Below are positions 35,462 through 48,522 of a stretch of DNA of 64,000 nucleotides, one piece after another. Origin of the DNA: Candidatus Aquicultor sp. (GTDB taxonomy: Bacteria > Actinomycetota > Aquicultoria > Aquicultorales > Aquicultoraceae); NCBI GenBank assembly GCA_036504445.1, contig DASXVE010000034.1, forward strand, positions 1 to 64,000. The letters are read 5' to 3'. A program made the translations under genes and the position numbers. The notes beneath the pieces were generated by a model. The model worked only from the letters and a program-made list of their open reading frames with translations. It was not told the origin of the DNA and ran no database searches. How positions within the stretch are numbered: position 1 is the stretch's first letter; every line of letters begins with the position of its first letter.

Positions 35462-36100
35462 ATGGAACAGCGAATTATAGACGTGCTAATTACATATTTA
35501 AGCGCATACGGCTACTATATCGTGTTTGCCGCGTTGCTTTTGGAGAACTTCTTCATAACCGGTTTAGTGATACCGGGAGAGACCGTACTCTTAATTGCTG
35601 CGGGGTTTGCAGGTCAGGGCTCGCTCAACATCGTGTATGTTATGCTGACCGCTATGATGGCGGCTATCCTTGGCAATATTGCTGGGTATTTCATAGGCGA
35701 GCGCGGCGGACGGCCGCTTATAGAAAAGTTCGGCGGACAGTTCATTTCGCCCGAGCGCATAACCGCAGCCGAAGAGTATTTTGACGTACACGGGCCCAAG
35801 ACCGTCTTTATCGGCAGGTTTGCCGCCGGCGTTCGCGTATTTGTGCCGCTCCTGGCCGGAGCTTCACGCATGAATTTCGCGAAATTCATAGCATATACAA
35901 CTGCGGCGGTTATCACATGGACTATTGGTCTCGGGCTTATCGGGTTTTTCTTCGGCGAGAACTGGCAATTAGTTAAAGAGCTGCTTGGTAGGTTTGGCGT
36001 CGCTATCCTTGCCATCGTAGTTGCCTTCATAGCTTTCTATGTTGTGAGGAGGCGACGTGAAAGAGCGCTCAACCGAAGCGATGATAGTGCAGGCGCTTAA
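35462..36100 (+). CDS. DedA (VTT domain) membrane protein
   Basis: DedA proteins are multi-pass membrane proteins; some family members flip phospholipids such as phosphatidylethanolamine or undecaprenyl phosphate. The 212-residue product has the family motifs ENFFITGLVIPGETVLLIAA and FIGRFAAGVRVFVPLLAGAS with a following RMNFAKFIAYT. It has about five hydrophobic segments and a basic C-terminus. The exact lipid substrate is unknown. Its 3' end overlaps birA by 44 bp. Confidence 0.9.
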   Translation: MEQRIIDVLITYLSAYGYYIVFAALLLENFFITGLVIPGETVLLIAAGFAGQGSLNIVYVMLTAMMAAILGNIAGYFIGERGGRPLIEKFGGQFISPERITAAEEYFDVHGPKTVFIGRFAAGVRVFVPLLAGASRMNFAKFIAYTTAAVITWTIGLGLIGFFFGENWQLVKELLGRFGVAILAIVVAFIAFYVVRRRRERALNRSDDSAGA

Positions 36101-37046
36101 AGACGCGCAGGCGGCGGGAGTGGGTGAGTACGTTTCCGGGGAAGAGCTGGCGCGGCGTACAGCGATTACGCGTGCCGCCATATGGAAGCATATCAAAAAT
36201 CTTAAAAGCCGCGGTTATGACATCGAAGCCGTTCGGCACCAGGGATACCGTTTGGTCGCGACTCCTGACTCGCTCAGCCCCGAACAAATTACTCCGTTAC
36301 TCATGGGATCACCTATCGGTGCAAACATTGTATATCGCAAGACGGTAGACTCAACGAACGATCTAGCCAAGGAGCTTGCTGAAAAAGGCGCACCTGAAGG
36401 CACGGTAGTTATCGCAGAGGAGCAAACAAGCGGAAAAGGGCGGCTTGACCGCGGGTGGGTATCGCCACCCGGCGGCATCTGGCTCTCGGTGATCCTCAGG
36501 CCGGAGACACCGCTTATGGAAGCCGCAAGGTTTACACTCCTTGCCGCGGTCGCCGCTGCTAAAACAATCGAGGCACTCGGCCTTATGCCGGAAATCAAAT
36601 GGCCGAACGATATCCTGCTCGACGGTAGAAAGGTAAGCGGCATACTTCTTGAGCTGAACGGCCAGCTTGGGAAGGTCAACTATCTCGTTATCGGCTTCGG
36701 AATTAACGCGAATATCGATGAAGATCTGCTGCCGCCTGAAATCAGAGCCGGTGCGACGACGTTGCGGGCATGCACGAGCCGGATTGTCGATCGCCGGGCA
36801 ATCGCGGTTACATTACTTACACAACTTGAAGATGGCTACCGGCAGCTCACTAGCGGCGGCTGGGATGCTGTCCTGGCAGAGTGGACCAAGCGGTGTCGGA
36901 TGATCGGAAGGACCGTTCGGCTCGCTACCTTCCATGGAAATATCGACGGCGAGTTTACCGGTATCGACGAATTCGGAGCGCTCGTCCTACGATTGCCGGG
37001 TGGGCAGCTGAAAACCTTTTCCGCCGGCGACGTTACTCTCCTATGA
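36057..37046 (+). CDS. birA: Bifunctional biotin ligase / biotin operon repressor BirA
   Basis: BirA joins biotin to carboxylase carrier proteins and, with biotinyl-AMP, represses biotin genes. The 329-residue protein has an N-terminal winged helix (SGEELARRTAITRAAIWKHI, residues 28-47), the catalytic domain with VDSTNDLAKELAEKGAPEG, the biotinyl-AMP loop TSGKGRLDRGWVSPPGGIW, and KWPNDILLDGRKVSGILLEL. The start is GTG 36057 after GGAGGCGAC. A BirA-type operator lies 42 bp beyond its stop in front of bioY, so it most likely controls its neighbour. Confidence 0.95.
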   Translation: MKERSTEAMIVQALKDAQAAGVGEYVSGEELARRTAITRAAIWKHIKNLKSRGYDIEAVRHQGYRLVATPDSLSPEQITPLLMGSPIGANIVYRKTVDSTNDLAKELAEKGAPEGTVVIAEEQTSGKGRLDRGWVSPPGGIWLSVILRPETPLMEAARFTLLAAVAAAKTIEALGLMPEIKWPNDILLDGRKVSGILLELNGQLGKVNYLVIGFGINANIDEDLLPPEIRAGATTLRACTSRIVDRRAIAVTLLTQLEDGYRQLTSGGWDAVLAEWTKRCRMIGRTVRLATFHGNIDGEFTGIDEFGALVLRLPGGQLKTFSAGDVTLL

Positions 37047-37059
37047 GGATGCTGGATAC

Positions 37060-37116
37060 TTGACTTGCAGGGGCTCTTGTATGACAATGTAAACCTATAG
37101 TAATATGCGGTTTACA
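37060..37116 (+). promoter_or_regulatory. bioY promoter with BirA operator
   Basis: TGTAAACC (37088-37095) and GGTTTACA (37109-37116) form a perfect inverted repeat with a 13-bp spacer, closely matching the BirA operator pattern TTGTAAACC-N14/15-GGTTTACAA. It starts at the end of a promoter TTGACT (37060-37065), 17 bp, GACAAT (37083-37088). Repression of bioY by biotin-loaded BirA is expected. Confidence 0.8.
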
Positions 37117-37133
37117 ATTATGAGGAGCTTCCG

Positions 37134-37670
37134 GTGAACAGACCTCTTGCAACATCCGGCATGGTAAAAGCGGCTCTTTTGGCTGCGCTTATTGCCGCTA
37201 CATCACAGCTGAGCATCCCGCAACCGTTCAGTGCTGTTCCGATTACGTTACAAGTATTTTTCGTGTTGCTTGCCGGGGCGGTCCTCGGCCCCCTGTACGG
37301 TTCGCTCAGCATGGTAGTCTATGTTTTATTGGGGCTTGCCGGGCTGCCCGTATTTGCGAACGGCGGCTCCGGCATCGGCACTCTTGTCGGTCCCACCGGT
37401 GGTTATCTTATCGGTTTTATTCTCGCAACCGGTGTTATCGGTTGGATAGTATCCGCCGGTAAAGCCTCGATGGCGCAGATATTGCTGGCGATGGGAGCGG
37501 GAATTATCGTAATTTATACGTGCGGTGTGATGCAGCTCTCGTTTGTTGCTAAGATGGCAATCGGGCAGGCGATTATCGCCGGCGCGGGGCCGTTTATCGT
37601 GCTTGATTTTGCAAAGGCCATCGTAGCGGCACTCGTCGCAAAAAGGGTTATACGTTCGCAAGCTACCTGA
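37134..37670 (+). CDS. bioY: Biotin transporter BioY (ECF substrate-binding subunit)
   Basis: BioY captures biotin at the membrane, alone or with the energy-coupling-factor module. The 178-residue protein has six hydrophobic segments, the family signature GPLYGSLSMVVYVLLGLAGL followed by PVFANGGSGIG and GPTGGYLIGFILA. The start is GTG 37134 with GAGGAG upstream. No ECF module genes lie beside it. Its BirA-type operator and the neighbouring birA support the call. Confidence 0.94.
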   Translation: MNRPLATSGMVKAALLAALIAATSQLSIPQPFSAVPITLQVFFVLLAGAVLGPLYGSLSMVVYVLLGLAGLPVFANGGSGIGTLVGPTGGYLIGFILATGVIGWIVSAGKASMAQILLAMGAGIIVIYTCGVMQLSFVAKMAIGQAIIAGAGPFIVLDFAKAIVAALVAKRVIRSQAT

Positions 37671-37709
37671 TTGGTGCCTTGTAATCAGCGTTTAATACTT
37701 CAGATAATA

Positions 37710-37738
37710 TTGTAAGCACTGGTAGGACGGTATATTAT
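37710..37738 (+). promoter_or_regulatory. Candidate promoter for the nitroreductase gene
   Basis: TTGTAA (37710-37715), a 17-bp spacer and TATTAT (37733-37738) precede the nitroreductase gene by about 40 bp. A short hairpin CTGATT/AATCAG at the bioY stop (37667-37688) may end the upstream transcript. Confidence 0.45.
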
Positions 37739-37778
37739 AATAGTATTAAGAGCTGGCCGCGATGGGCGGTGAGAGACT

Positions 37779-38414
37779 ATGGCTATAGGAAAAACGGACT
37801 CCACACACCGAACAAACCAAACGGATATGCCGCTTGAAGAGGCAATATTCTCACGACGCAGCGTGCGCACGTTTCTAGCCGATCCGGTGCCGAAAGAAGT
37901 GGTTGAGCGCGTATTACAAGCCGGTATAGCCGCACCATCGGCGCTGAATAGCCAACCGTGGCGTTTCATAGTCGCAACCGGGTCAACACGTGATGAATTC
38001 GTAAAGATTATTCGAAAATTCCCGGCATATCTCGCCGATATCGTAGCTCTGGTTCGGGGAGAATCGAGTTTCGACGTCGATGATGAGAAGGTCACGAGCT
38101 TTGCAGATGACCTTGGCGGGGCACCGGTTATTATCTTTGCAACCATACCTAAGAAAACCAACCAGTATGCAAAGCGGCTCGATCTTATCGGTTGTGCTTC
38201 CGCTATCCAGAACATGCAGCTCATTGCCTGGTCGTTGGGATTAGGCAGCGTGTGCTTAGCCACGGGGATATGGGTCGAATCTGAGATCGCCCAGGCGCTT
38301 GAGCTTAAAGACAGCGAGATAGCCAGTATTATGGTGCTCGGCTACAGAGAATCGGACCCGCAGGCTCCCGCAAAAACTCGCCAGGACACCGTGATTACCT
38401 GGTTAGATACCTAG
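37779..38414 (+). CDS. Nitroreductase family FMN oxidoreductase
   Basis: The 211-residue protein is a small nitroreductase-fold flavoenzyme: IFSRRSVRTFLADPVPKEVV, IAAPSALNSQPWRFIVATG and a C-terminal MQLIAWSLGLGSVCLATGIW with IMVLGYRESDPQA. These FMN-dependent enzymes reduce quinones, nitro groups or halogenated compounds with NAD(P)H; the native substrate cannot be told. ATG follows GGGCGGTGAGAGACT. It stands between biotin and CoA genes without an obvious link. Confidence 0.88.
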   Translation: MAIGKTDSTHRTNQTDMPLEEAIFSRRSVRTFLADPVPKEVVERVLQAGIAAPSALNSQPWRFIVATGSTRDEFVKIIRKFPAYLADIVALVRGESSFDVDDEKVTSFADDLGGAPVIIFATIPKKTNQYAKRLDLIGCASAIQNMQLIAWSLGLGSVCLATGIWVESEIAQALELKDSEIASIMVLGYRESDPQAPAKTRQDTVITWLDT

Positions 38415-38488
38415 CCGGATCGTTTCCACCTTCCATTTAAATGCTAACACGACTGCGGTATTGCCGTATTACGAATGACAGTTTTTGC

Positions 38489-38517
38489 TTGAGCTAAACC
38501 GAGTCAAGTCGTATCAT
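38489..38517 (+). promoter_or_regulatory. Candidate coaX promoter
   Basis: TTGAGC (38489-38494), a 17-bp spacer and TATCAT (38512-38517) lie about 55 bp before the coaX start. Confidence 0.5.
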
Positions 38518-38573
38518 GTACAGAGAAATTGAGATTCGGTTGCTTTAGATGATTAGTACAGGAGTGAAGAGAT

Positions 38574-39350
38574 ATGGCGGGTAACACCCTGCTTGCCATA
38601 GATGTGGGAAACACCCATACCGTTATCGGTTGTTTTGAGGACAGGCAACTCAAGGCACAATGGCGGATCGCCACGCGGCGTGAAGTTACCGCTGATGAGC
38701 TTGCCTTGATCATGGCCAACTTATTCCAACTTAACCGTTTCTTTCTTGGTGATATCACCGGCGTCGTCATTGCTTCGGTCGTGCCGCCGGTTACAACGTC
38801 GCTCATAGAGATGGCGACAAAGACGTTTACGGTTGATTGTCTTGTGGTCGGGCCGGACACTGATACCGGCGTGCCGATTCTCTACGACAATCCGCAGGAA
38901 GTCGGCGCAGATCGCATAGCTAATGTTGTCGCCGGCTATGAGATGTACGGCGGACCGCTTGTTGTGGTCGACTTTGGAACCGCTACAACGTTCGACGCGG
39001 TCTCAAGCCGCGGTGAATATCTGGGAGGCGCAATTGCCCCGGGCATCGAGGTTTCATCCGAGGCGCTCTTTCGCAGGGCGGCGCGTCTGTCAAAAGTCGA
39101 CCTCGTGCTCCCCGAGCATGCGATTGGTAAAACAACCAGAAGCAGCATTCAAGCAGGTATTATAATCGGTACCGGAGGCCTTGTAGATCGAATAGTCGAT
39201 CGCATCGAGGCAGAAATGGGCGAGCTCAAAGACGTCGTCGCGACGGGCGGGCTTGCCAAGCTTATTGCCCCGGAATGCAAAAGGATCACCCATGTTGACG
39301 TTGCACTTACCCTGACAGGATTGCAGCGTATTTACGAGCGAAACAGCTAG
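38574..39350 (+). CDS. coaX: Type III pantothenate kinase CoaX
   Basis: CoaX phosphorylates pantothenate, the first step of coenzyme A synthesis; the type III enzyme belongs to the ASKHA superfamily. The 258-residue protein has the P-loop-like TLLAIDVGNTHTVIGCFEDR, NPQEVGADRIANVVAGYEMY, VVVDFGTATTFDAVSSRGEY and GGAIAPGIEVSSEALFRRAA, which are the classical CoaX motifs. ATG follows GGAGTGAAGAGAT. Position after the birA region matches many Gram-positive genomes. Confidence 0.96.
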   Translation: MAGNTLLAIDVGNTHTVIGCFEDRQLKAQWRIATRREVTADELALIMANLFQLNRFFLGDITGVVIASVVPPVTTSLIEMATKTFTVDCLVVGPDTDTGVPILYDNPQEVGADRIANVVAGYEMYGGPLVVVDFGTATTFDAVSSRGEYLGGAIAPGIEVSSEALFRRAARLSKVDLVLPEHAIGKTTRSSIQAGIIIGTGGLVDRIVDRIEAEMGELKDVVATGGLAKLIAPECKRITHVDVALTLTGLQRIYERNS

Positions 39351-39397
39351 CACAGGCATAACGCTCTCCGGTAAGGCTATCAAGCTCTTACAAGATA

Positions 39398-39430
39398 TTC
39401 ACACGACGTTCACAACATCTTCACACAATG
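39398..39430 (+). promoter_or_regulatory. Three 11-nt direct repeats upstream of htrA (PHO-box-like)
   Basis: TTCACACGACG, TTCACAACATC and TTCACACAATG follow each other head-to-tail with an exact 11-nt period (39398-39430). OmpR/PhoB-class response regulators bind such repeats, and actinobacterial PhoP boxes are built of 11-nt units containing GTTCA. CATAAT (39435-39440) directly downstream could be the -10 box of an activated promoter. Confidence 0.6.
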
Positions 39431-39491
39431 TGCGCATAATTACTTGTAGCCTTATACATTCTTTATCTTGTTGAGGAAAGGAAGGAAGTTT

Positions 39492-40685
39492 ATGTGGAAA
39501 ACAGTAGCTATGAGCTTTGTTTCCGCTGTGTTGGGAGGCTTGCTGGTGTTTTTTGCGATGACCGGCATGTACCCGGCACAACAGAAAGTGCAGCAAACAA
39601 CAGAACCGGTATCGCTAACGAAGACGGCGGGCCTTAAGCAGGATACCGGCGGTTTTGCCCCAGACGAGATATATAAGCAGTTCGGGCCGGGCGTTGTTCA
39701 TATCAAGTCGATCTTTACGACGCAGCGCACGGATTTCTTTGGTTTCCAGCTACCACCGCAGCAGAATGAAGCCGACGGGTCAGGTTTTATCGTTGATAAG
39801 TCCGGTCTCATCGTGACAAACGCACACGTGGTGCAGGATTCTAATACCACGTCGAATAAGATCACGGTCTTATTGAGCAACAACGAAGAGGTGAGCGCCA
39901 AACTGCTTGGCACTGATCCGAGTACCGACCTTGCACTTTTAAAGATCGATCCGGCCGGTAAAAACCTCAAAGTTCTGGACCTCGGAAATAGCTCGAAACT
40001 CGAAGTAGGCAATACCGTGTATGCGATCGGCTCACCGTTCGAGCTTGACGGTACGATGACCCAGGGAATAATAAGCGCCCTCAATCGCACGATCGATTCT
40101 CCGAACGGCCAATTTAAAATTCGCGGCGCCATCCAAACCGACGCGGCGGTCAACCCGGGCAATAGCGGAGGGCCGCTCTTTAACGCGCAAGGCGAGGTTG
40201 TCGGTATTAACTCACAAATCGCATCGAACTCAGGGACATTCGCCGGTATCGCGTTTGCTATTCCGAGCAATACTGTGAAATCGATTATCAAAGAGATCGA
40301 GAAAAACGGTAAAGCAAGCCATCCGTGGCTTGGAATCTCAGGTATGGACATCACGGCCGCCATGGCGAAGCAACTTAAGCTTCCGGTTACAGGCGGGGTT
40401 ATGATCGTTCAGGTTATGCCGGGCGGCCCGGCCGACAAAGCAGGCATTAAGGGCGCGACACAGAGTCTCGTAAACAACCAAACCGGTCAGCAGATTCCTA
40501 TCGGCGGCGACGTTGTTACGAAAATCAACAACGAAAAAGTCACTACGATGGATAAGATCCTAAACTTCGTCGAAAGCCACAAAGTGGACGACTCGATTAC
40601 TCTGGAAATATACCGTGGTAATGAGAAAAAAGACATCACGTTTAAGCTTGGCGAACGCCCGCAAAATTTTACGATTCAGAATTAG
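39492..40685 (+). CDS. htrA: HtrA/DegP-type membrane-anchored serine protease (first copy)
   Basis: The 397-residue protein (ATG 39492 after AAGGAAGGAAGTTT) has an N-terminal membrane anchor (about 4-27), a trypsin-like domain with the triad in IVTNAHVVQDS, STDLALLKID and NPGNSGGPLFNAQGEVVGIN, and one C-terminal PDZ domain with VMPGGPADKAGIKG. It would remove misfolded exported proteins at the cell surface. The in-frame TTG at 39468 is less likely because it lies within the ribosome-site region. Direct repeats upstream suggest two-component control. Confidence 0.94.
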   Translation: MWKTVAMSFVSAVLGGLLVFFAMTGMYPAQQKVQQTTEPVSLTKTAGLKQDTGGFAPDEIYKQFGPGVVHIKSIFTTQRTDFFGFQLPPQQNEADGSGFIVDKSGLIVTNAHVVQDSNTTSNKITVLLSNNEEVSAKLLGTDPSTDLALLKIDPAGKNLKVLDLGNSSKLEVGNTVYAIGSPFELDGTMTQGIISALNRTIDSPNGQFKIRGAIQTDAAVNPGNSGGPLFNAQGEVVGINSQIASNSGTFAGIAFAIPSNTVKSIIKEIEKNGKASHPWLGISGMDITAAMAKQLKLPVTGGVMIVQVMPGGPADKAGIKGATQSLVNNQTGQQIPIGGDVVTKINNEKVTTMDKILNFVESHKVDDSITLEIYRGNEKKDITFKLGERPQNFTIQN

Positions 40686-40712
40686 AAATAAATAATAATC
40701 GATGAATAAATT

Positions 40713-40763
40713 AAAAGTCCCTGGTCAGTATGCCCTTTAGCGGCAAGCGGAGCAGGGCCTTTT
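40713..40763 (+). terminator. Terminator after the first htrA
   Basis: AAAAGTCCCTG (40713-40723) pairs with CAGGGCCTTTT (40753-40763) with a single mismatch. The arm ends in a T-run. The loop is 29 nt. Confidence 0.7.
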
Positions 40764-40766
40764 GTA

Positions 40767-40814
40767 TTGAACTATCGTCGCGGTTGGTTTAGAATGTACA
40801 CATAATTGTGCACA
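40767..40814 (+). promoter_or_regulatory. Promoter and palindromic operator of the reductase cassette
   Basis: TTGAAC (40767-40772), a 17-bp spacer and TAGAAT (40790-40795) form a promoter. Overlapping its end is the inverted repeat TGTACAC-N6-GTGCACA (40795-40814) with one mismatch, placed over the expected transcription start. This is the layout of a repressor operator; the first gene of the cassette encodes an HTH regulator. Confidence 0.65.
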
Positions 40815-40874
40815 AACTAAAGGCTAGCATCGTGCGTGTAAGCTGTTCGAGCTTGGTATGTGAGGTAACAATAC

Positions 40875-41495
40875 ATGCGCCAGAAAATGCAGAAAATGAG
40901 ACTGTTACGCATCGGCGAAAAGATTATTGACCGCGACCGGTTGACTGATGTTGTCGGCGAGATTTTGCATCGTCGCGCCATCGGCGCGACACAACAGGAA
41001 GTAGCGGTCGCGATGGGCCTCGAGCGGGCGTTTGTTTCACACCTGGAAGGCCTCGGAGAAGTGCGAAGGGGCAACCGGATTGCGGTTATAGGGTTTCCCA
41101 TCGCGAACAAAGAAGAGCTCGAGCACGTCGCTCACGAGCACGCCGTCGATTTCGTATATCTTTTGAGCGAAACAGAACGTAATGAGTACGTACACAAAAA
41201 TAGCGGGGCCGAGCTCTTTAATGAGATACTCGAGCTCCTGGCACGTCTTAGGGACTTCGATGTTGTTGTTTTTCTAGCATCTGACAAGCGCATCGAGAAT
41301 CTTGTAAAAATCCTCGATCGGGAAGTTATCGGCGTCCCCATTGGTGATTCACCTATCAAGCGTGACCGCAAGGTTAAGGCCGAGGTCCTCAGTGAGATCC
41401 TGTCCAAGGTATCTGAAGATAAGGGGTTAGATATTGAAACGGGTAGTAAGCGCAAGTTTAGGATCTTCAAAAAGAAATCATCAGGTCATAACTAA
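40875..41495 (+). CDS. HTH regulator of the acyl-ACP-reductase-like cassette
   Basis: The 206-residue protein has an N-terminal helix-turn-helix (about 28-58: GEILHRRAIGATQQEVAVAM then GLERAFVSHLEGLGEV) of the XRE type and a C-terminal domain (about 65-180) with RIAVIGFPIANKEELEHVAH and FDVVVFLASDKRIENLVKIL. The C-terminal part may bind a small ligand, but it is not a domain I can name. It begins a three-gene unit and overlaps the next gene by 62 bp. The palindrome in its promoter suggests autoregulation. ATG has GTGAGGTAACAATAC upstream. Confidence 0.7.
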   Translation: MRQKMQKMRLLRIGEKIIDRDRLTDVVGEILHRRAIGATQQEVAVAMGLERAFVSHLEGLGEVRRGNRIAVIGFPIANKEELEHVAHEHAVDFVYLLSETERNEYVHKNSGAELFNEILELLARLRDFDVVVFLASDKRIENLVKILDREVIGVPIGDSPIKRDRKVKAEVLSEILSKVSEDKGLDIETGSKRKFRIFKKKSSGHN

Positions 41496-42339
41496 CTTGC
41501 TCGATGAAGAATTTACAATCGAGCGCATTGGGACCGACGGCGATTTCGATAAAGCGAAGGCCATGCTCAGAAGTCTCGATGGCAATGTCGATGCGATCGG
41601 CCTCGGCGGCATCGATCTCTACCTGTATGCCGACGGCAAACGGTACGCGATTCGCGATGCAAAAAAACTCTACGATGTTGTTCTCAAGACGCCGGTGGTC
41701 GATGGAAGCGGTCTAAAGAATACGCTTGAGCGCGAAGTCGTCCGCTACCTGGCCCATGACGCAGGCTTATCCCTATCTGATAAAAAAGTGTTGATGGTAA
41801 GCGCAGTCGACCGGTTTGGGATGGCCGAATCGCTGCATGAGCTCGGTTGCGACATCCTCTTCGGAGACCTAATTTTTGCGCTAAATTTGCCGATCCCGAT
41901 ACACACGATGAGGTCGTTCCGAGTCCTCGCCAAGGCGCTCCTTCCCATTGTAACCAAGCTGCCGTTTAAAATACTGTATCCAACCGGCAGCAAGCAGGAA
42001 AAAGAGCCGTCCGAGAGCTATACTCGCTATTACAGGGACGCCGACGTTATTGCCGGTGATTACCTGTTCGTTCGCAAATATATGCCGCGGGATATGAAGG
42101 GCAAATGGATTCTAACCAACACGACCACAGCGGCGGATGTTGCCGACTTAAAAGAGCGCGGCGTCGAGTATTTGATTACTACGACACCTGTATTTAACGG
42201 GCGCTCGTTCGGCACGAACGTTCTTGAGGCCGCGCTGCTCGCCCTCCTTGGTAAGAGCTGGGAAGAAGTAACGCCTCAGGATTACCTTGACGTTCTGAAG
42301 AAGCTCGATTACAAGCCGCGAATTGAGAAGCTGAACTAA
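41434..42339 (+). CDS. 'Quinate 5-dehydrogenase-like' protein of unknown function
   Basis: The 301-residue protein begins KRVVSASLGSSKRNHQVITN and contains IGLGGIDLYLYADGKRYAIR, VDGSGLKNTLEREVVRYLAH, KVLMVSAVDRFGMAESLHEL and YLITTTPVFNGRSFGTNVLE. Similar proteins in anaerobic Firmicutes carry the automatic label quinate 5-dehydrogenase, but I see no classical Rossmann glycine motif or catalytic site supporting that. The TTG start (AAGGGG upstream) lies inside the regulator gene; the conserved N-terminus shows that the 62-bp overlap is real. Function is unknown; partnership with the next gene is likely. Confidence 0.7.
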   Translation: MKRVVSASLGSSKRNHQVITNLLDEEFTIERIGTDGDFDKAKAMLRSLDGNVDAIGLGGIDLYLYADGKRYAIRDAKKLYDVVLKTPVVDGSGLKNTLEREVVRYLAHDAGLSLSDKKVLMVSAVDRFGMAESLHELGCDILFGDLIFALNLPIPIHTMRSFRVLAKALLPIVTKLPFKILYPTGSKQEKEPSESYTRYYRDADVIAGDYLFVRKYMPRDMKGKWILTNTTTAADVADLKERGVEYLITTTPVFNGRSFGTNVLEAALLALLGKSWEEVTPQDYLDVLKKLDYKPRIEKLN

Positions 42340-42354
42340 TAAACAGGAGATTTG

Positions 42355-43440
42355 ATGGAGACTTTTGGTTTTCTAGTCCATCCTATGGACATCGAAGACG
42401 TGGTAAAAAAATATAAGATTGCAAAAAAAATCTCACCCAAAGTCGTGGGGAGCATTTTGAAACGCCGCCGGCCGTTTGTTATATCCGAAGTCTCCGGAAT
42501 TAAATCGAAAACCGGTGCCGAGGCGATCGGCTGGTTCATTGTCGTGCCGTTTTTACCGCACCAATTCACCGATCTCGATGAAGATTACGTGATCGAGAAA
42601 ATCGTAAAAGCATGTGACGTCGGACGAAAAGAAGGCGCAAAAATTATCGGGTTGGGTGCGTTTACCGCGATTCCCGGCGGCGGCGGCAAACTGGTTGCCC
42701 AGGCAAGCAGGGTACCGGTAACCACGGGCAATACCTATACGGCGGTTCTTGCCAACGAGGGAGCAAAAGCTGCCGCACGCAAGATGGGTATCGAACCGGC
42801 AGCCTCAACGCTTGCCGTTGTCGGCGCAACAGGCTCAATCGGCAGCATCAGCGCCGAGGTGCTTGCAAAGGATTTCGAGCAAGTGATTCTTATCGGGCGC
42901 GATAAAAACAGGTTGGAGACCCTCAAAGAGCGCATTGCTAAAGACAACGAAAATGTTGCCGTAATGATTTCAACCGATCTTTCCGCCATTCGTCCTGCCG
43001 ATGTTATCGTGACGGTTACCGGTGCGGCAAAGGCGGTAATCAGCCCGGATGATGTGAAGGCGGGCGCTGTCGTCTGTGACGTTGCTCGACCGCGCGACGT
43101 TTCCGAGATACTCGCACGACGCCGCAACGACGTTCTTGTCATTGACGGCGGTATTGCGCGGGTCCCGGGCAACCCCGATCTCGGCCACTATGTCGGGCTG
43201 CCGAAGGGGATGGCTCTCGGGTGCATGGCCGAGACTATTATGCTCGCACTTGACCAACGCTACGAAAACTATACAATTGGCAAAGACATAAGTCGCAAAA
43301 AACTTGAGGAAATGTCGCAGATTGCCGCCAAGCACGGTTTTAGACTTGCCGGTTTGCGGGGTTTCGAGAAGAAGCTATCAGATGCGGCCATCGAAAAGAT
43401 CCGTCAAAACGCACACCACGAGGCAGTTGCAAATATTTAG
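42355..43440 (+). CDS. Acyl-ACP-reductase-like (COG5322-type) NAD(P)-dependent oxidoreductase
   Basis: The protein of about 361 residues has a Rossmann fold with VVGATGSIGSISAEVLAKDF (near 155-175) and resembles cyanobacterial long-chain acyl-ACP reductase along its length: an N-terminal FGFLVHPMDIEDV, LGAFTAIPGG, TTGNTYTAVLANEGAKAAAR, and a C-terminal LGCMAETIMLALDQRYENYT followed by GKDISRKKLEEMSQIAAKHG. The Cys near residue 290 in LGCMAE aligns with the acyl-thioester Cys of that enzyme. Such genes are often labelled shikimate dehydrogenase. An acyl or aminoacyl thioester substrate is inferred. The start is ATG 42355 after CAGGAGATTTG (the ORF can be read from TTG 42352). Confidence 0.75.
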   Translation: METFGFLVHPMDIEDVVKKYKIAKKISPKVVGSILKRRRPFVISEVSGIKSKTGAEAIGWFIVVPFLPHQFTDLDEDYVIEKIVKACDVGRKEGAKIIGLGAFTAIPGGGGKLVAQASRVPVTTGNTYTAVLANEGAKAAARKMGIEPAASTLAVVGATGSIGSISAEVLAKDFEQVILIGRDKNRLETLKERIAKDNENVAVMISTDLSAIRPADVIVTVTGAAKAVISPDDVKAGAVVCDVARPRDVSEILARRRNDVLVIDGGIARVPGNPDLGHYVGLPKGMALGCMAETIMLALDQRYENYTIGKDISRKKLEEMSQIAAKHGFRLAGLRGFEKKLSDAAIEKIRQNAHHEAVANI

Positions 43441-43468
43441 CGGCATGCCTATGCTGTGGTGTTTCTGC

Positions 43469-43496
43469 TAAAATTAGCGGAGTATTCTGCCGATAA
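43469..43496 (+). promoter_or_regulatory. Sigma-28-like sequence before a terminator
   Basis: TAAA (43469-43472), a 16-bp spacer and GCCGATAA (43489-43496) match the flagellar sigma consensus. The next element downstream is a terminator at 43517, so a transcript from here would be only about 50 nt long, or would need read-through to reach greA. It could be chance. Confidence 0.35.
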
Positions 43497-43516
43497 TATG
43501 TAAATAATATGTGTCG

Positions 43517-43553
43517 CGCCACCGCAACCAAAGACGGTGGCGGCATGTTTTTT
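43517..43553 (+). terminator. Terminator of the reductase cassette
   Basis: CGCCACCG (43517-43524) pairs with CGGTGGCG (43535-43542), followed by GCATGTTTTTT. It ends the regulator-quinate-like-reductase unit. Confidence 0.8.
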
Positions 43554-43604
43554 AAGACGATTTGCGGAAACTATATATTATTTTGACGGAAATTATAGTT
43601 TCTT

Positions 43605-43633
43605 TTGACAAGTCTGAAGCATTTTTCTATAAT
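43605..43633 (+). promoter_or_regulatory. Consensus vegetative promoter of greA
   Basis: TTGACA (43605-43610), exactly 17 bp, then TATAAT (43628-43633): both hexamers are perfect sigma-70/SigA consensus. It drives greA and probably lysS. Confidence 0.9.
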
Positions 43634-43638
43634 ACTTA

Positions 43639-43676
43639 GCTAGCTTCCAGTGAAGCTAGCACTTTTTAAAAAGTGC
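43639..43676 (+). terminator. Attenuator-like hairpins in the greA leader
   Basis: Immediately after the expected transcription start, GCTAGCTTC (43639-43647) pairs with GAAGCTAGC (43652-43660), and TTTTT follows two bases later (43663-43667), as in an intrinsic terminator. The T-run is itself part of an 18-bp perfect palindrome GCACTTTTTAAAAAGTGC (43659-43676) that shares bases with the first stem, so the two structures exclude each other. An attenuation switch is inferred. Confidence 0.6.
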
Positions 43677-43702
43677 TTCTTACAGTAAAGGAGCGGGAAG
43701 TT

Positions 43703-44203
43703 TTGCCGGAGAAAGAGATCATCCTTACAAAAGATGGCTACAACAAATTAATAGAAGAATTACGCTATCTTGAAACAACTCGTCGTAAGCAGGTCGCGGC
43801 GCGCATCAAAGAATCCATCGAGTTCGGAGACTTAAGCGAAAACTCCGAGTATGATGATGCCAAGAACGAGCAGGCATTCGTCGAGGGTAGGATTATACAG
43901 ATTAACGACATGCTCTCGATGGCTAAGATCATCGAGGACAACGGGGTCAAGTCGAGCAAAGTTGCGATTGGCTGCCATGTTACACTGCTCGATGTCGAGT
44001 CTGGTGACGAGGAAGAGTACCACATCGTAGGCTCATTTGAAGCCGATCCAACGAATCACAAGATTTCCAACGAATCACCGGTCGGTCAGGCCATTATGGG
44101 TAAAAAGGCAGGAGAGGTCGTTCAAGTCCGCGTACCCGATGGTTTCCTGGAGTACAAGATTTTAAAGATTAAGTGCAATAACAACGGTAACCATAAGAAA
44201 TAA
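43703..44203 (+). CDS. greA: Transcript cleavage factor GreA
   Basis: GreA rescues backtracked RNA polymerase by stimulating cleavage of the RNA 3' end. From TTG 43703 (GGAG 9 nt upstream) the product is 166 residues, close to the usual 158. The N-terminal coiled coil has LTKDGYNKLIEELRYLETTR and the tip motif GDLSENSEYDDAKNEQAFVE with the acidic pair; the C-terminal FKBP-like domain has ISNESPVGQAIMGKKAGEVV. The longer frame from 43673 runs into the leader palindrome and is unlikely. The stop overlaps the lysS start (TAATG). Confidence 0.95.
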   Translation: MPEKEIILTKDGYNKLIEELRYLETTRRKQVAARIKESIEFGDLSENSEYDDAKNEQAFVEGRIIQINDMLSMAKIIEDNGVKSSKVAIGCHVTLLDVESGDEEEYHIVGSFEADPTNHKISNESPVGQAIMGKKAGEVVQVRVPDGFLEYKILKIKCNNNGNHKK

Positions 44204-45732
44204 TGGAAAAAGAATCGCAGACAAGTGGGCCCGAATTGGAAAAAGAAACTCAGGCCGAAGACATTAGCGAAGTAATGAGATTACGACGCCAGAAGCTTGA
44301 TCGAATCATAGCTTCTGGCGATGTTCCTTTTAAATCGAAATTTACCCGCACAAACCTCATTGCCGATATCATCAGCGAGCATCAAGACATTGCGCCCGGA
44401 GAGCACGTGGACGGCGAAGTCACGGTTGCCGGGCGTATAATGGCAATACGCCGTCACGGTAAAGCAAGTTTTATCGTGCTCAAAGACCGCAGTGCAAGCA
44501 TGCAGCTCTTTTTGTCACTGGGCACACTCGGCGAAGATCGCTATAAAACCTTTCTCGAATATGACATCGGCGATATCGTAGGTGTGTCCGGTATCGTCTT
44601 TAAGACGCGGCGCGGTGAATTATCCGTCGATGTCAGGGATTACACGCTGCTGACCAAATCATTGCGACCGCTGCCGGAAAAATGGCACGGTCTCAAAGAC
44701 GTCGAGGCGAGATACCGCCAGCGCTACGTAGACCTCATTATCAACCAGCAAGCGCGCGATACCTTACTGACCAGGACGAAGATCATCAAAGCGATCCGTC
44801 ACTGGCTCGACGAGCGAGATTTTATCGAAGTCGAAACGCCGATGCTGCAGGTTGTACCGGGCGGTGCAACCGCGCGGCCGTTTATCACGCATCACAATGC
44901 GCTCGACATCGATCTCTATATGCGAATCGCCCCCGAGCTCTACCTAAAGCGCCTGATTGTCGGCGACATGGAGCGCGTGTACGAACTCAACCGCAATTTT
45001 AGAAACGAAGGCCTGTCGGTGCGTCACAATCCCGAGTTTACAATGCTTGAGGTATACCAGGCGTACGCGGACTACCACGATATGATGAACCTGACCGAGG
45101 AACTCATCAAATACGCGGCGGATCAGGCGACGGGTACGCTCAAGCTTACATATCAAGGCCAGCCGGTCGACCTCTCAGGAAACTGGCAGCGCCTTACGAT
45201 GATAGAATCGATCGAAAAGTACGGCGGCGAAGCCGTGTCATTCGACCAAGATTCGGACGAGCTTCGCGCTATTGCGAAAAAGCACGGCATCGAACCGGAC
45301 AAACGCTGGGGCAAGGGTAAGATTATAAACGAGCTGTTCGAAAAACTTGTCGAAGGCAAGCTCTGGCAGCCGACATTTATCACCGATTATCCGGTCGAGA
45401 TCAGCCCGCTCGCCAAGAAAAAGCCGGACGATCCGAACGTGACCGAACGGTGGGAGTTAATCGTTATCGGTATCGAAGTAGGTACGGCGTTCTCCGAGTT
45501 AACCGACCCGATAGACCAACTGAATCGCTTCGAAGCGCAGGTTAAGACGAGCGTGTATGATGAAGAGGCACCAAAACAGGTCGATGAAGATTACGTGCGC
45601 GCGCTCGAATACGGAATGCCGCCGACCGGTGGTATGGGTTTGGGCATCGACCGTCTTGTTATGCTTTTGACTGATAACTACTCAATCCGAGAAGTCATCG
45701 GGTTCCCACACATGCGCCCAGAAAAAGCGTAA
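44203..45732 (+). CDS. lysS: Class II lysyl-tRNA synthetase LysS
   Basis: LysS charges tRNA-Lys. The 509-residue protein has an N-terminal OB-fold (AIRRHGKASFIVLKDRSASM), motif 1 near DFIEVETPMLQVVPGGATAR, motif 2 with NRNFRNEGLSVRHNPEFTML, and motif 3 PPTGGMGLGIDRLVMLLTDN. ATG 44203 overlaps the greA stop, indicating translational coupling. No T-box leader is present before it. Confidence 0.97.
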   Translation: MEKESQTSGPELEKETQAEDISEVMRLRRQKLDRIIASGDVPFKSKFTRTNLIADIISEHQDIAPGEHVDGEVTVAGRIMAIRRHGKASFIVLKDRSASMQLFLSLGTLGEDRYKTFLEYDIGDIVGVSGIVFKTRRGELSVDVRDYTLLTKSLRPLPEKWHGLKDVEARYRQRYVDLIINQQARDTLLTRTKIIKAIRHWLDERDFIEVETPMLQVVPGGATARPFITHHNALDIDLYMRIAPELYLKRLIVGDMERVYELNRNFRNEGLSVRHNPEFTMLEVYQAYADYHDMMNLTEELIKYAADQATGTLKLTYQGQPVDLSGNWQRLTMIESIEKYGGEAVSFDQDSDELRAIAKKHGIEPDKRWGKGKIINELFEKLVEGKLWQPTFITDYPVEISPLAKKKPDDPNVTERWELIVIGIEVGTAFSELTDPIDQLNRFEAQVKTSVYDEEAPKQVDEDYVRALEYGMPPTGGMGLGIDRLVMLLTDNYSIREVIGFPHMRPEKA

Positions 45733-46059
45733 GCAGCAAAGTTTTCCCTCGAAGTTTCAACCGGCGTACGGTTTATTTAAGGCATACCGGCGCGCGCAAA
45801 ATCCGGCCGAGAAATTAATACAAATAATTGTCGATATTACGGTTGTCTTTTTAAGGATTTTGGGTAAGGATACCGATAACACGTTGTATAGCCGATCACA
45901 AGGTTGCTTTCGCCGTGTCGCAGTAGACGTGGTAAAATGGTCTTAACTGTTTGTCGCAAAATATTTGTGGGCATATTACAGTTAGTAGCTGCGCAAATAA
46001 ATCAAGTGAAGGTGCATTTGCATATGGCTCTACTAGGAATTATGGAAGGGAGATAAGCC
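45733..46059. other. Intergenic region between lysS and clpC
   Basis: No gene is supported in this 327-bp gap. ctsR, mcsA and mcsB, which precede clpC in many Firmicutes, are absent, and I see no CtsR heptad repeat, CIRCE or HAIR-like operator. The one notable element is the sigma-28-like sequence at 45852-45879, listed separately. A TAAAAT (about 45934) could be a vegetative -10 box without a clear -35. Confidence 0.6.
45852..45879 (+). promoter_or_regulatory. Sigma-28-like promoter candidate upstream of clpC
   Basis: TAAG (45852-45855), 16 bp, ACCGATAA (45872-45879): the same form as the element before flbD apart from one base in the -10. It would give clpC a leader of about 170 nt. The functional link between clpC and motility is speculative. 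Confidence 0.35.
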
Positions 46060-48522
46060 ATGTTTGAGCGGTTTACCGAGCGAGCGCGTCGCGTCGTTGT
46101 CTTCGCACAAGAAGAGGCGCGCATGCTCAATCAGAATTACATAGGAACAGAGCACCTTCTCCTAGGCTTAATCAGGGAAGAGGAAGGCGTAGCAGCTCGG
46201 GCGCTTCAAAGCTTGGGCATCAGCTTGTATGATGTCCGCGCGCAGGTCGAAGAAATTATCGGCCGTGGCACAAGCGCTCCTGTTGGCCATATTCCGTTTA
46301 CACCGCGGGCTAAGAAAGTCCTCGAACTCTCATTGCGAGAGGCGTTACAGCTCGGGCACAACTATATCGGTACCGAGCATATCCTTTTAGGCCTCATCAG
46401 AGAAGGTGAGGGTGTTGCTGCTAGAGTCTTGTACAACCTTGGTGCGGACCTTGATCGGGTTAGAAACCAGGTTATCCAGCTATTGAGCGGTTACTATGGC
46501 AAGACAAGCAGCGAGCCGAGCACGTACGGTCGTACCTACGGCGGTTCATTATTAGATGAATTCGGGCGCAATCTCACACGCCTTGCGCACGAAGGCAAAC
46601 TCGACCCGGTGATCGGGCGCGAGACCGAGATTGAGCGCGTCATGCAGATTCTCTCTCGCCGCACGAAAAACAATCCGGTGCTCATTGGCGAGCCTGGCGT
46701 TGGTAAAACTGCGGTTGTCGAGGGGCTGGCGCAAAAGATCTCAGACAACGATGTGCCCGACATTCTCAAGAACAAAGAGATTTATACACTCGACCTTGGG
46801 GCTCTGGTCGCCGGTTCGAAGTATCGTGGCGAGTTTGAGGAGCGCTTAAAAAAGGTCATGAAGGAGATCCGCGAGCGGGGTGACATTATCCTATTCGTCG
46901 ATGAGATGCATAACTTGGTCGGCGCTGGCGCCGCCGAGGGTGCGATCGATGCGGCGAGCATTTTGAAACCGGCTCTGGCTCGAGGCGAACTACAAACAAT
47001 CGGTGCCACGACGCTTGATGAGTACCGCAAGCATGTCGAGAAAGACGCTGCGCTTGAGCGTAGGTTCCAGCCGATAACCGTTGGCGAACCGTCGATTCAA
47101 GAAACGGTTGATATCTTAAAAGGCTTGCGCGAGCGTTACGAAGAGCACCACCACGTGACGATTACCGATGATGCACTAACGGCTGCAGCACAGCTTGCCG
47201 ACCGTTACATCGCGGACAGGTTCTTGCCGGATAAGGCGATCGACCTGGTAGACGAGGCTGCTTCCAAAGTGCGCATGCAGCGCATGTCGGTTCCGGCCGA
47301 GTCGCTCACCGTTGAAGAAGATTTACGCAACCTGCGCCGCGAGAAAGAAGCGGCCGTTGCATTACAGGATTACGAGAAAGCAGCAGCTATTCGCGATAAA
47401 GAACGCAGCATCGAAATCGAGCTCTCCGCCAAGGATTCTACCTGGGAGGCGCTCGCGCAGATGCCGGTAGCAACCGTTACCGAAGAGCAGATCGCCGAAG
47501 TCGTTGCGACATGGACCGGTATCCCGGTCTTTCGTCTCACCGAAGAAGAGACGGCGAAACTGCTTCGCATGGAGGATGAGCTACACAAGCGTGTCATTAG
47601 CCAGGAAGAGGCCATTAAGGCTATCTCAAAGGCCATCAGGCGCACGCGCGCCGGGTTGAAAGACCCGAAACGCCCGAGCGGGTCGTTTGTCTTCCTGGGA
47701 CCATCTGGCGTTGGTAAAACCGAGCTGGCAAAAGCGTTGGCCGAGTTCCTCTTTGGCGATGAGCAGGCACTGATTCAGCTCGACATGAGCGAGTACATGG
47801 AGAAACACACAGTGAGCCGTATGGTCGGTTCACCGCCTGGATACGTAGGCTATGACGAGGGCGGGCAGCTCACCGAGAAGGTGCGCAGGCGTCCGTACTC
47901 AGTCATCTTGCTCGATGAGATCGAGAAGGCGCACCCGGATGTCTTTAATATCCTCCTGCAAATTCTCGAGGACGGTCGTTTGACCGATTCCCAGGGTCGT
48001 CAGGTCGATTTCAAGAATACGATTCTCATCATGACGTCCAACTTGGGCGCGCGCTATATCCAAAAAGGTACGCCGCTCGGGTTCGGTAAGAGCCAGGAAG
48101 GCATGGATTACAACGATATGAAGAACAAGGTTATGGGCGAGATTAAGAAAACGTTCCGGCCGGAGTTCTTGAACCGTATCGACGATGTCATCGTCTTCCA
48201 CGAGCTCACGCGAGACGACATCAAGAAGATCGTCGATCTCATGTTTAAGCGGATCATCGACCAGCTCAGAGAGCAGGCGATCTACGTCGAGCTCACCGAA
48301 GAGGCGAAAGACTACCTCGTGAAGGAAGGATACGAACCCGCCATGGGTGCGCGGCCGTTGAGGCGCGCAATCCAGCGGTTTATCGAGGACCCGATTTCGG
48401 AGGGGCTGCTCTCTGCGCAATTCCGGTCCGGCGACACAATCGTCGTTACTGAAAAAGAAGGAAAGCTTGACTTCAGCAAGCTTGAGCCGGCAAGTATAGG
48501 CGCCGGCGGGCGTGAGGTATGA
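46060..48522 (+). CDS. clpC: ATP-dependent Clp protease ATPase subunit ClpC
   Basis: ClpC is a hexameric AAA+ unfoldase that feeds ClpP. The 820-residue product has two N-terminal Clp repeats ([20 protein letters not shown] and [20 protein letters not shown]), AAA-1 with [20 protein letters not shown] near 210, a UVR-like linker ([20 protein letters not shown]), and AAA-2 with [20 protein letters not shown] near 548. The ATG follows GGAAGGGAGATAAGCC. It overlaps radA by 4 bp (ATGA). Confidence 0.97.

Follow-up and report, generated by a model that had tools for sequence, protein, structure and literature searches.

The three-gene unit described here, from a Candidatus Aquicultor contig of which we analysed a 64,000-nucleotide stretch (the window), probably represents a regulated operon for the reductive release of an acyl thioester. 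Its third product (G3) is related along its full length to the thioester-reductase domain of PigE and to acyl-ACP reductase (AAR), its first (G1) is a helix-turn-helix (HTH) regulator, and its second (G2) belongs to a conserved protein family that accompanies G3 in two phyla. The open reading frames are present as the initial annotation had placed them (Table 1). All three are co-directional and stand behind one promoter of the sigma-A type, together with a 20-bp operator made of two tandem octamers. G2 begins with a TTG codon and overlaps G1 by 62 nt, while G1 has a possible alternative start at 40896, where its relatives and the profile match begin. The closest named relatives are found in Candidatus Aquicultor and other deep-branching Actinobacteriota, with G2 sharing 82% identity with its counterpart in Ca. 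Aquicultor secundus.

Table 1. Features of the three-gene unit (window coordinates).
Feature	Position	Strand	Length or remark
Sigma-A type promoter, TTGAAC-N17-TAGAAT	40767..40795	+	9/12 matches; arrangement recurs beside the operator in relatives
Operator, TGTACACATAATTGTGCACA = TGTACACA-taat-TGTGCACA	40795..40814	+	Two TGTRYACA octamers, four-base spacer
G1, HTH regulator with Rossmann-like C-terminal domain	40875..41495	+	206 aa
G2, conserved protein with predicted dehydrogenase-like two-domain fold	41434..42339	+	301 aa
G3, predicted acyl-thioester reductase of the PigE N-domain/AAR kind	42355..43440	+	361 aa
Codon of Cys290, presumed acyl-thioester cysteine	43222..43224	+	In LGCMAE
Probable intrinsic terminator, hairpin (about 43516-43544) and T6	43516..43556	+	Fold compared with shuffles

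Promoter, operator and regulator

The arrangement at the head of the unit, a promoter with a palindromic operator over the start site, was confirmed and recurs widely. Relatives keep identical promoter spacing and near-identical hexamers. The operator shares its first base with the end of the -10 box and overlaps the presumed start site. It is the sole match in the window at up to two mismatches (0.06 expected) and, by pattern search, the sole match in the 2.57-Mb genome at up to one. The same operator is found upstream of G1 in other phyla, adjoined in most loci by a sigma-A-like promoter. Among 36 genomes of other lineages, 26 carry the exact operator, 24 of them in exactly one copy; a reversed-pattern control gave a match in one genome of the same scan. 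A second exact operator in genome G064 (C11:86755-86774; loci L220 and L267) lies close to a contig end. The operator also occurs in other arrangements: genome G082 has G1-G2 at its greA-lysS locus and an unlinked aminotransferase-AAR fusion, with an exact operator at both, and where G1 lies directly upstream of such a fusion (L192 and L197) the operator is one mismatch off. Among the loci listed, no operator precedes an unlinked G2 gene except at L113 (one mismatch), and the unlinked G2 genes of Peptococcaceae-type genomes lack it.

G1 occurs in 23 of the 246 genomes sampled from the window's phylum, and all 23 carry G2 or G3. This restriction and the unique, conserved operator support the earlier suggestion that the regulator is dedicated to the unit. 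The HTH region of G1 resembles the Tfx family and EnfR (PDB 8HNO) at 1.3e-4, a match lying mainly over the HTH; the C-terminal part is not convincingly alike, and its Rossmann-like domain gave no significant PDB fold match. EnfR, a putative repressor, has an inverted repeat as its binding site (PMC10570040), but the operator sequences of this archaeal regulator and of G1 are unrelated and the two have no significant fold match. The position and conservation of the operator suggest that G1 is an autoregulator acting on the tandem octamer and controlling G1, G2 and G3 together. Because the operator sits over the start site, G1 is most likely a repressor, which would stay bound there and keep the operon off until a signal arrives, although it could instead be an activator.

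The single terminator proposed after G3 is moderately supported, since the region folds better than shuffles of itself (-21 kcal/mol, z = -2.97). It is absent from the list produced by a consensus scan, which allows loops of up to 8 bases and T-runs within 2 bases of the stem. Further on, at 43605-43660, a sigma-70-type promoter with 12/12 matches (TTGACA-17-TATAAT) and, behind it, a 9-bp inverted repeat lie just before greA, and greA-lysS therefore probably has a strong promoter of its own.

G3 and the acyl-thioester reductases

G3 had been described as AAR-like along its length, and full-length profile matches bear this out. It matched the NCBIfam model PigE (NF053554) at 2e-57 (residues 4-356, N-domain residues 2-360) and AcACP_reductase (TIGR04058) at 1e-32. 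In the PDB, sequence searches retrieved PigE (4ppm, 6e-37) and AAR (6jzq, 4e-20), and profile searches retrieved the same two structures at 4e-58 and 8e-47, respectively. Both NCBIfam scores lie below the curated equivalog cut-offs (195 against 850 bits for PigE, 114 against 449.7 bits for AcACP_reductase). Judged by its sequence, G3 is thus a relative rather than an equivalog of these families, and because the scores fall so far under the cut-offs, its substrate may differ from theirs.

The cysteine that the initial annotation had put at the place of the acyl-thioester Cys is conserved. In the profile alignment Cys290 falls on the acyl-Cys of AAR (Cys294), and C290, E293, G157, G160 and G163 are invariant in 41 G3 locus sequences. 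Cys290 is kept in 51 of the 53 members of a wider set, the two exceptions being degenerate copies (L186:6086-7177 and L188:3044-4102) that have no catalytic Cys in the usual position; one has also lost the glycine loop. The genomes with these copies (G065 and G071) carry an aminotransferase-AAR fusion elsewhere, next to another G1, an apparent case of replacement and decay.

Compared with cyanobacterial long-chain AAR (TIGR04058, PDB 6JZU), G3 aligns over residues 40-330 and shares the GATGxIG-type NADPH-binding loop (GATGSIG, 157-163), the acyl-Cys and the final helix with E293, but the aldehyde-deformylating oxygenase partner of the cyanobacterial system is not expected in an anaerobe. The PigE N-terminal thioester-reductase domain of prodigiosin biosynthesis likewise aligns with the whole of G3 and keeps the acyl-Cys; in the window, however, the reductase is encoded on its own, with G2 and an HTH regulator as its companions, and no prodiginine genes were seen nearby. 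For PigE, reduction of a thioester to the aldehyde has been shown experimentally, and its Cys296 has been equated with the acyl-Cys of AAR, Cys294 (PMC8341465). The full-length homology, the invariant Cys290 and the demonstrated chemistry of PigE make it very likely that G3 reduces acyl thioesters to aldehydes. Homology strongly supports the course followed by AAR and the PigE N-domain: G3 would move an acyl group from acyl-ACP or acyl-CoA onto Cys290, and NADPH bound at the GATGSIG loop would then reduce the acyl-Cys to the aldehyde.

Public labels instead make G3 a shikimate dehydrogenase and G2 a quinate 5-dehydrogenase, the latter a label that the initial annotation had already found unsupported by motifs. 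That the two proteins are divergent members of these families is very improbable. Pfam Shikimate_DH does match G3 (residues 147-256, 5e-10), and comparison of the G3 and AroE profiles gives 95% probability, but both matches are confined to the general Rossmann half, whereas the PigE/AAR matches are full-length and far better. G3 also lacks the NVTxPxK motif with its catalytic Lys and the NTDG motif with its Asp, and a separate, bona fide aroE (3e-78) is present in the same genome. For G2, the D90-G-x-G stretch resembles the NTDGxG of AroE by eye, yet hhalign gives just 3-4% probability to AroE, and Pfam and NCBIfam lend the quinate label no support. We rejected both assignments; 'shikimate/quinate dehydrogenase' is not a justified label for proteins of the G2 and G3 types.

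G2 and its association with G3

None of the 75 G2 members searched has a credible Pfam or NCBIfam family, and sequence and profile searches of the PDB returned no relative of G2. The family is nonetheless strongly conserved, with R14, R31, D90, G91, E99, R127, D145, D209, R257 and N262 unchanged throughout 107 sequences. The AlphaFold model (pLDDT 89) is a two-domain alpha/beta protein whose highest TM-score among the 50 PDB matches listed is to AAR (0.46-0.50), the other matches including glutamate and leucine dehydrogenases, malic enzyme and sugar-binding proteins. G2 has SAVDRFG where GxGxxG would be expected, and it lacks the Cys. Although G2 and G3 align collinearly, G3 profiles with shuffled columns reach 24.8 against 23.5 for the real profile, and we do not claim sequence homology between them. 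As the profile does not rise above these controls, the dehydrogenase-like nature of G2 rests on the predicted fold with its modest TM-score (0.5), which makes such a fold plausible. Tentatively, G2 may be a partner enzyme of this fold, with a highly polar active site and no canonical GxGxxG loop.

The distribution of G2 follows that of G3. Among 246 genomes of the window's phylum, 25 have both genes, 4 G2 only, 4 G3 only and 213 neither; among 299 genomes of the Pelotomaculum phylum the corresponding counts are 185, 38, 4 and 72, and since the genomes within such samples are related, Fisher p-values for this co-occurrence overstate its independence. Of 29 pairs compared, drawn from the best-scoring matches, 22 have the two genes no more than 250 bp apart. 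The association holds in both phyla, also where the genes are unlinked or G3 has been replaced by a fusion. As a side observation, G2 is tandemly duplicated ahead of G3 at L056 (and L036).

The unit is set in a string of housekeeping genes (window 36057-48522) that comprises birA-like, bioY-like, nitroreductase-like, coaX and degP/htrA-like genes, G1-G2-G3, greA, lysS and a clpC-like gene. The order is mostly common to relatives, with dusB in Bacillota where the window has degP. To call the unit 'self-contained', as the initial annotation did, was therefore too strong, given its place inside this coaX-...-greA-lysS string, the 38 of 223 G2 genomes (17%, in the Pelotomaculum phylum sample) without G3, and the Desulfotomaculum/Pelotomaculum-type genomes that keep G1-G3 at the string with G2 elsewhere. 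The same conserved string, G2-only genomes and separated G2 genes of Peptococcaceae-type genomes would also fit an account in which ancestral gene order by greA-lysS mainly holds the trio together and the function of G2 is unrelated to that of G3. We consider this unlikely: 185 of the 189 G3 genomes of the Pelotomaculum phylum have G2, even when G2 sits at another locus or G3 has been replaced by a fusion, and G1, G2 and G3 share a promoter and operator. Functional partnership within an acyl-thioester-reducing operon is the reading we prefer, and in it G2 would work with G3, probably upstream. Since G3 is hardly ever without G2, whereas G2 can lack G3, G2 is more likely to make or present the substrate, or to have an independent core role, than merely to consume the aldehyde.

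Gene neighbourhoods and the likely pathway

A survey of G2 neighbourhoods, proposed with the initial annotation, found the three-gene unit conserved in deep Actinobacteriota and in Bacillota, in the order coaX - dusB or degP - G1 - G2 - G3 - greA - lysS. Oleimmundimicrobium-type and other lineages have G2 - class-III aminotransferase - SRPBCC (lipid-binding-type) - G3. For the aminotransferase of these operons the top-scoring matches are putrescine aminotransferase (8e-155) and the PigE C-domain (2e-124), and the operons, with a PigE-like class-III aminotransferase beside the reductase, consequently look, from their sequences, like what is in effect a split PigE. In such relatives the aldehyde would probably be converted to an amine. 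In Pelotomaculum/Desulfotomaculum-type genomes G1-G3 is at greA-lysS and G2 has a separate locus, where genes for an SCP2 protein and a permease accompany it; at L052:6952-8668 and similar Desulfotomaculum-type loci, the genes behind the unlinked G2 encode an SCP2-domain protein and an amino-acid permease. In two Atribacteria-type genomes (L105 and L111) a BioF/Kbl/serine-palmitoyltransferase-like PLP enzyme fills the G3 slot, directly behind a G1-G2 pair that has the operator. At L066:4611-5513 and L073:6925-7728 divergent proteins that match no Pfam family lie between G2 and greA; by eye they resemble decayed AAR-type proteins, and genome G073 has an intact G3 elsewhere.

Several G2 genomes carry aminotransferase-AAR fusions of about 880-900 aa, two of them directly behind G1 and an operator, whereas the reductase of the window stands alone. 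Two annotated clusters showed no FAS or PKS genes beside the fusions. Transaminase-AAR fusions are known, namely KecF, PP_2782 and the Thermaerobacter and Thermincola fusions (PMC10829540), and the accessible part of that report describes no link to a G1/G2 cassette.

The aminotransferase, SRPBCC and SCP2 neighbours suggest that the substrate is acyl or lipid-like and the product an aldehyde or an amine. The earlier proposal was of an undescribed pathway that reduces an acyl or aminoacyl thioester; the reductive step on an acyl thioester gains support from the homology of G3 and the conserved unit, the aminoacyl substrate found no evidence in its favour, and the pathway as a whole is one that we infer. 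Our literature search found no description of the G1-G2-G3 unit.

It seems quite improbable that G3 runs in the reverse, assimilatory direction (aldehyde + CoA -> acyl-CoA) in an operon for aldehyde detoxification or catabolism, with G1 sensing an aldehyde or acyl-CoA. Strict anaerobes often handle aldehydes, a dedicated regulator fits an inducible catabolic or stress system, and G2 adjoins an amino-acid permease in some Peptococcaceae-type genomes. AAR and PigE, however, act reductively, known examples of PigE-like pairing with an aminotransferase serve biosynthesis, and the neighbourhoods, whose genes are partly annotated, hold no recurring aldehyde or alcohol dehydrogenase, CoA-ligase or microcompartment genes.

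AAR/PigE-type acyl-thioester reductases have a known place in cyanobacterial alkane synthesis and in a small number of natural-product clusters. In the present samples a G3-type reductase belongs to the near-core gene set of a large clade of anaerobes (189 of 299 genomes of one phylum) and is also present in deep Actinobacteriota, accompanied by its own regulator and by a partner family outside every Pfam and NCBIfam model, which suggests a common, unnamed aldehyde-forming step in anaerobes. More speculatively, and with real doubt, G2 may found a new enzyme family, and G1-G2-G3 may be the core of an undescribed, near-universal pathway to aldehyde (or long-chain amine or alcohol) lipids in strict anaerobes of deep-branching lineages; the natural-product enzymes of the PigE and transaminase-AAR types might derive from it. 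With usually a single operator per genome, the regulon is directly testable, and the unit offers candidate thermostable enzymes.
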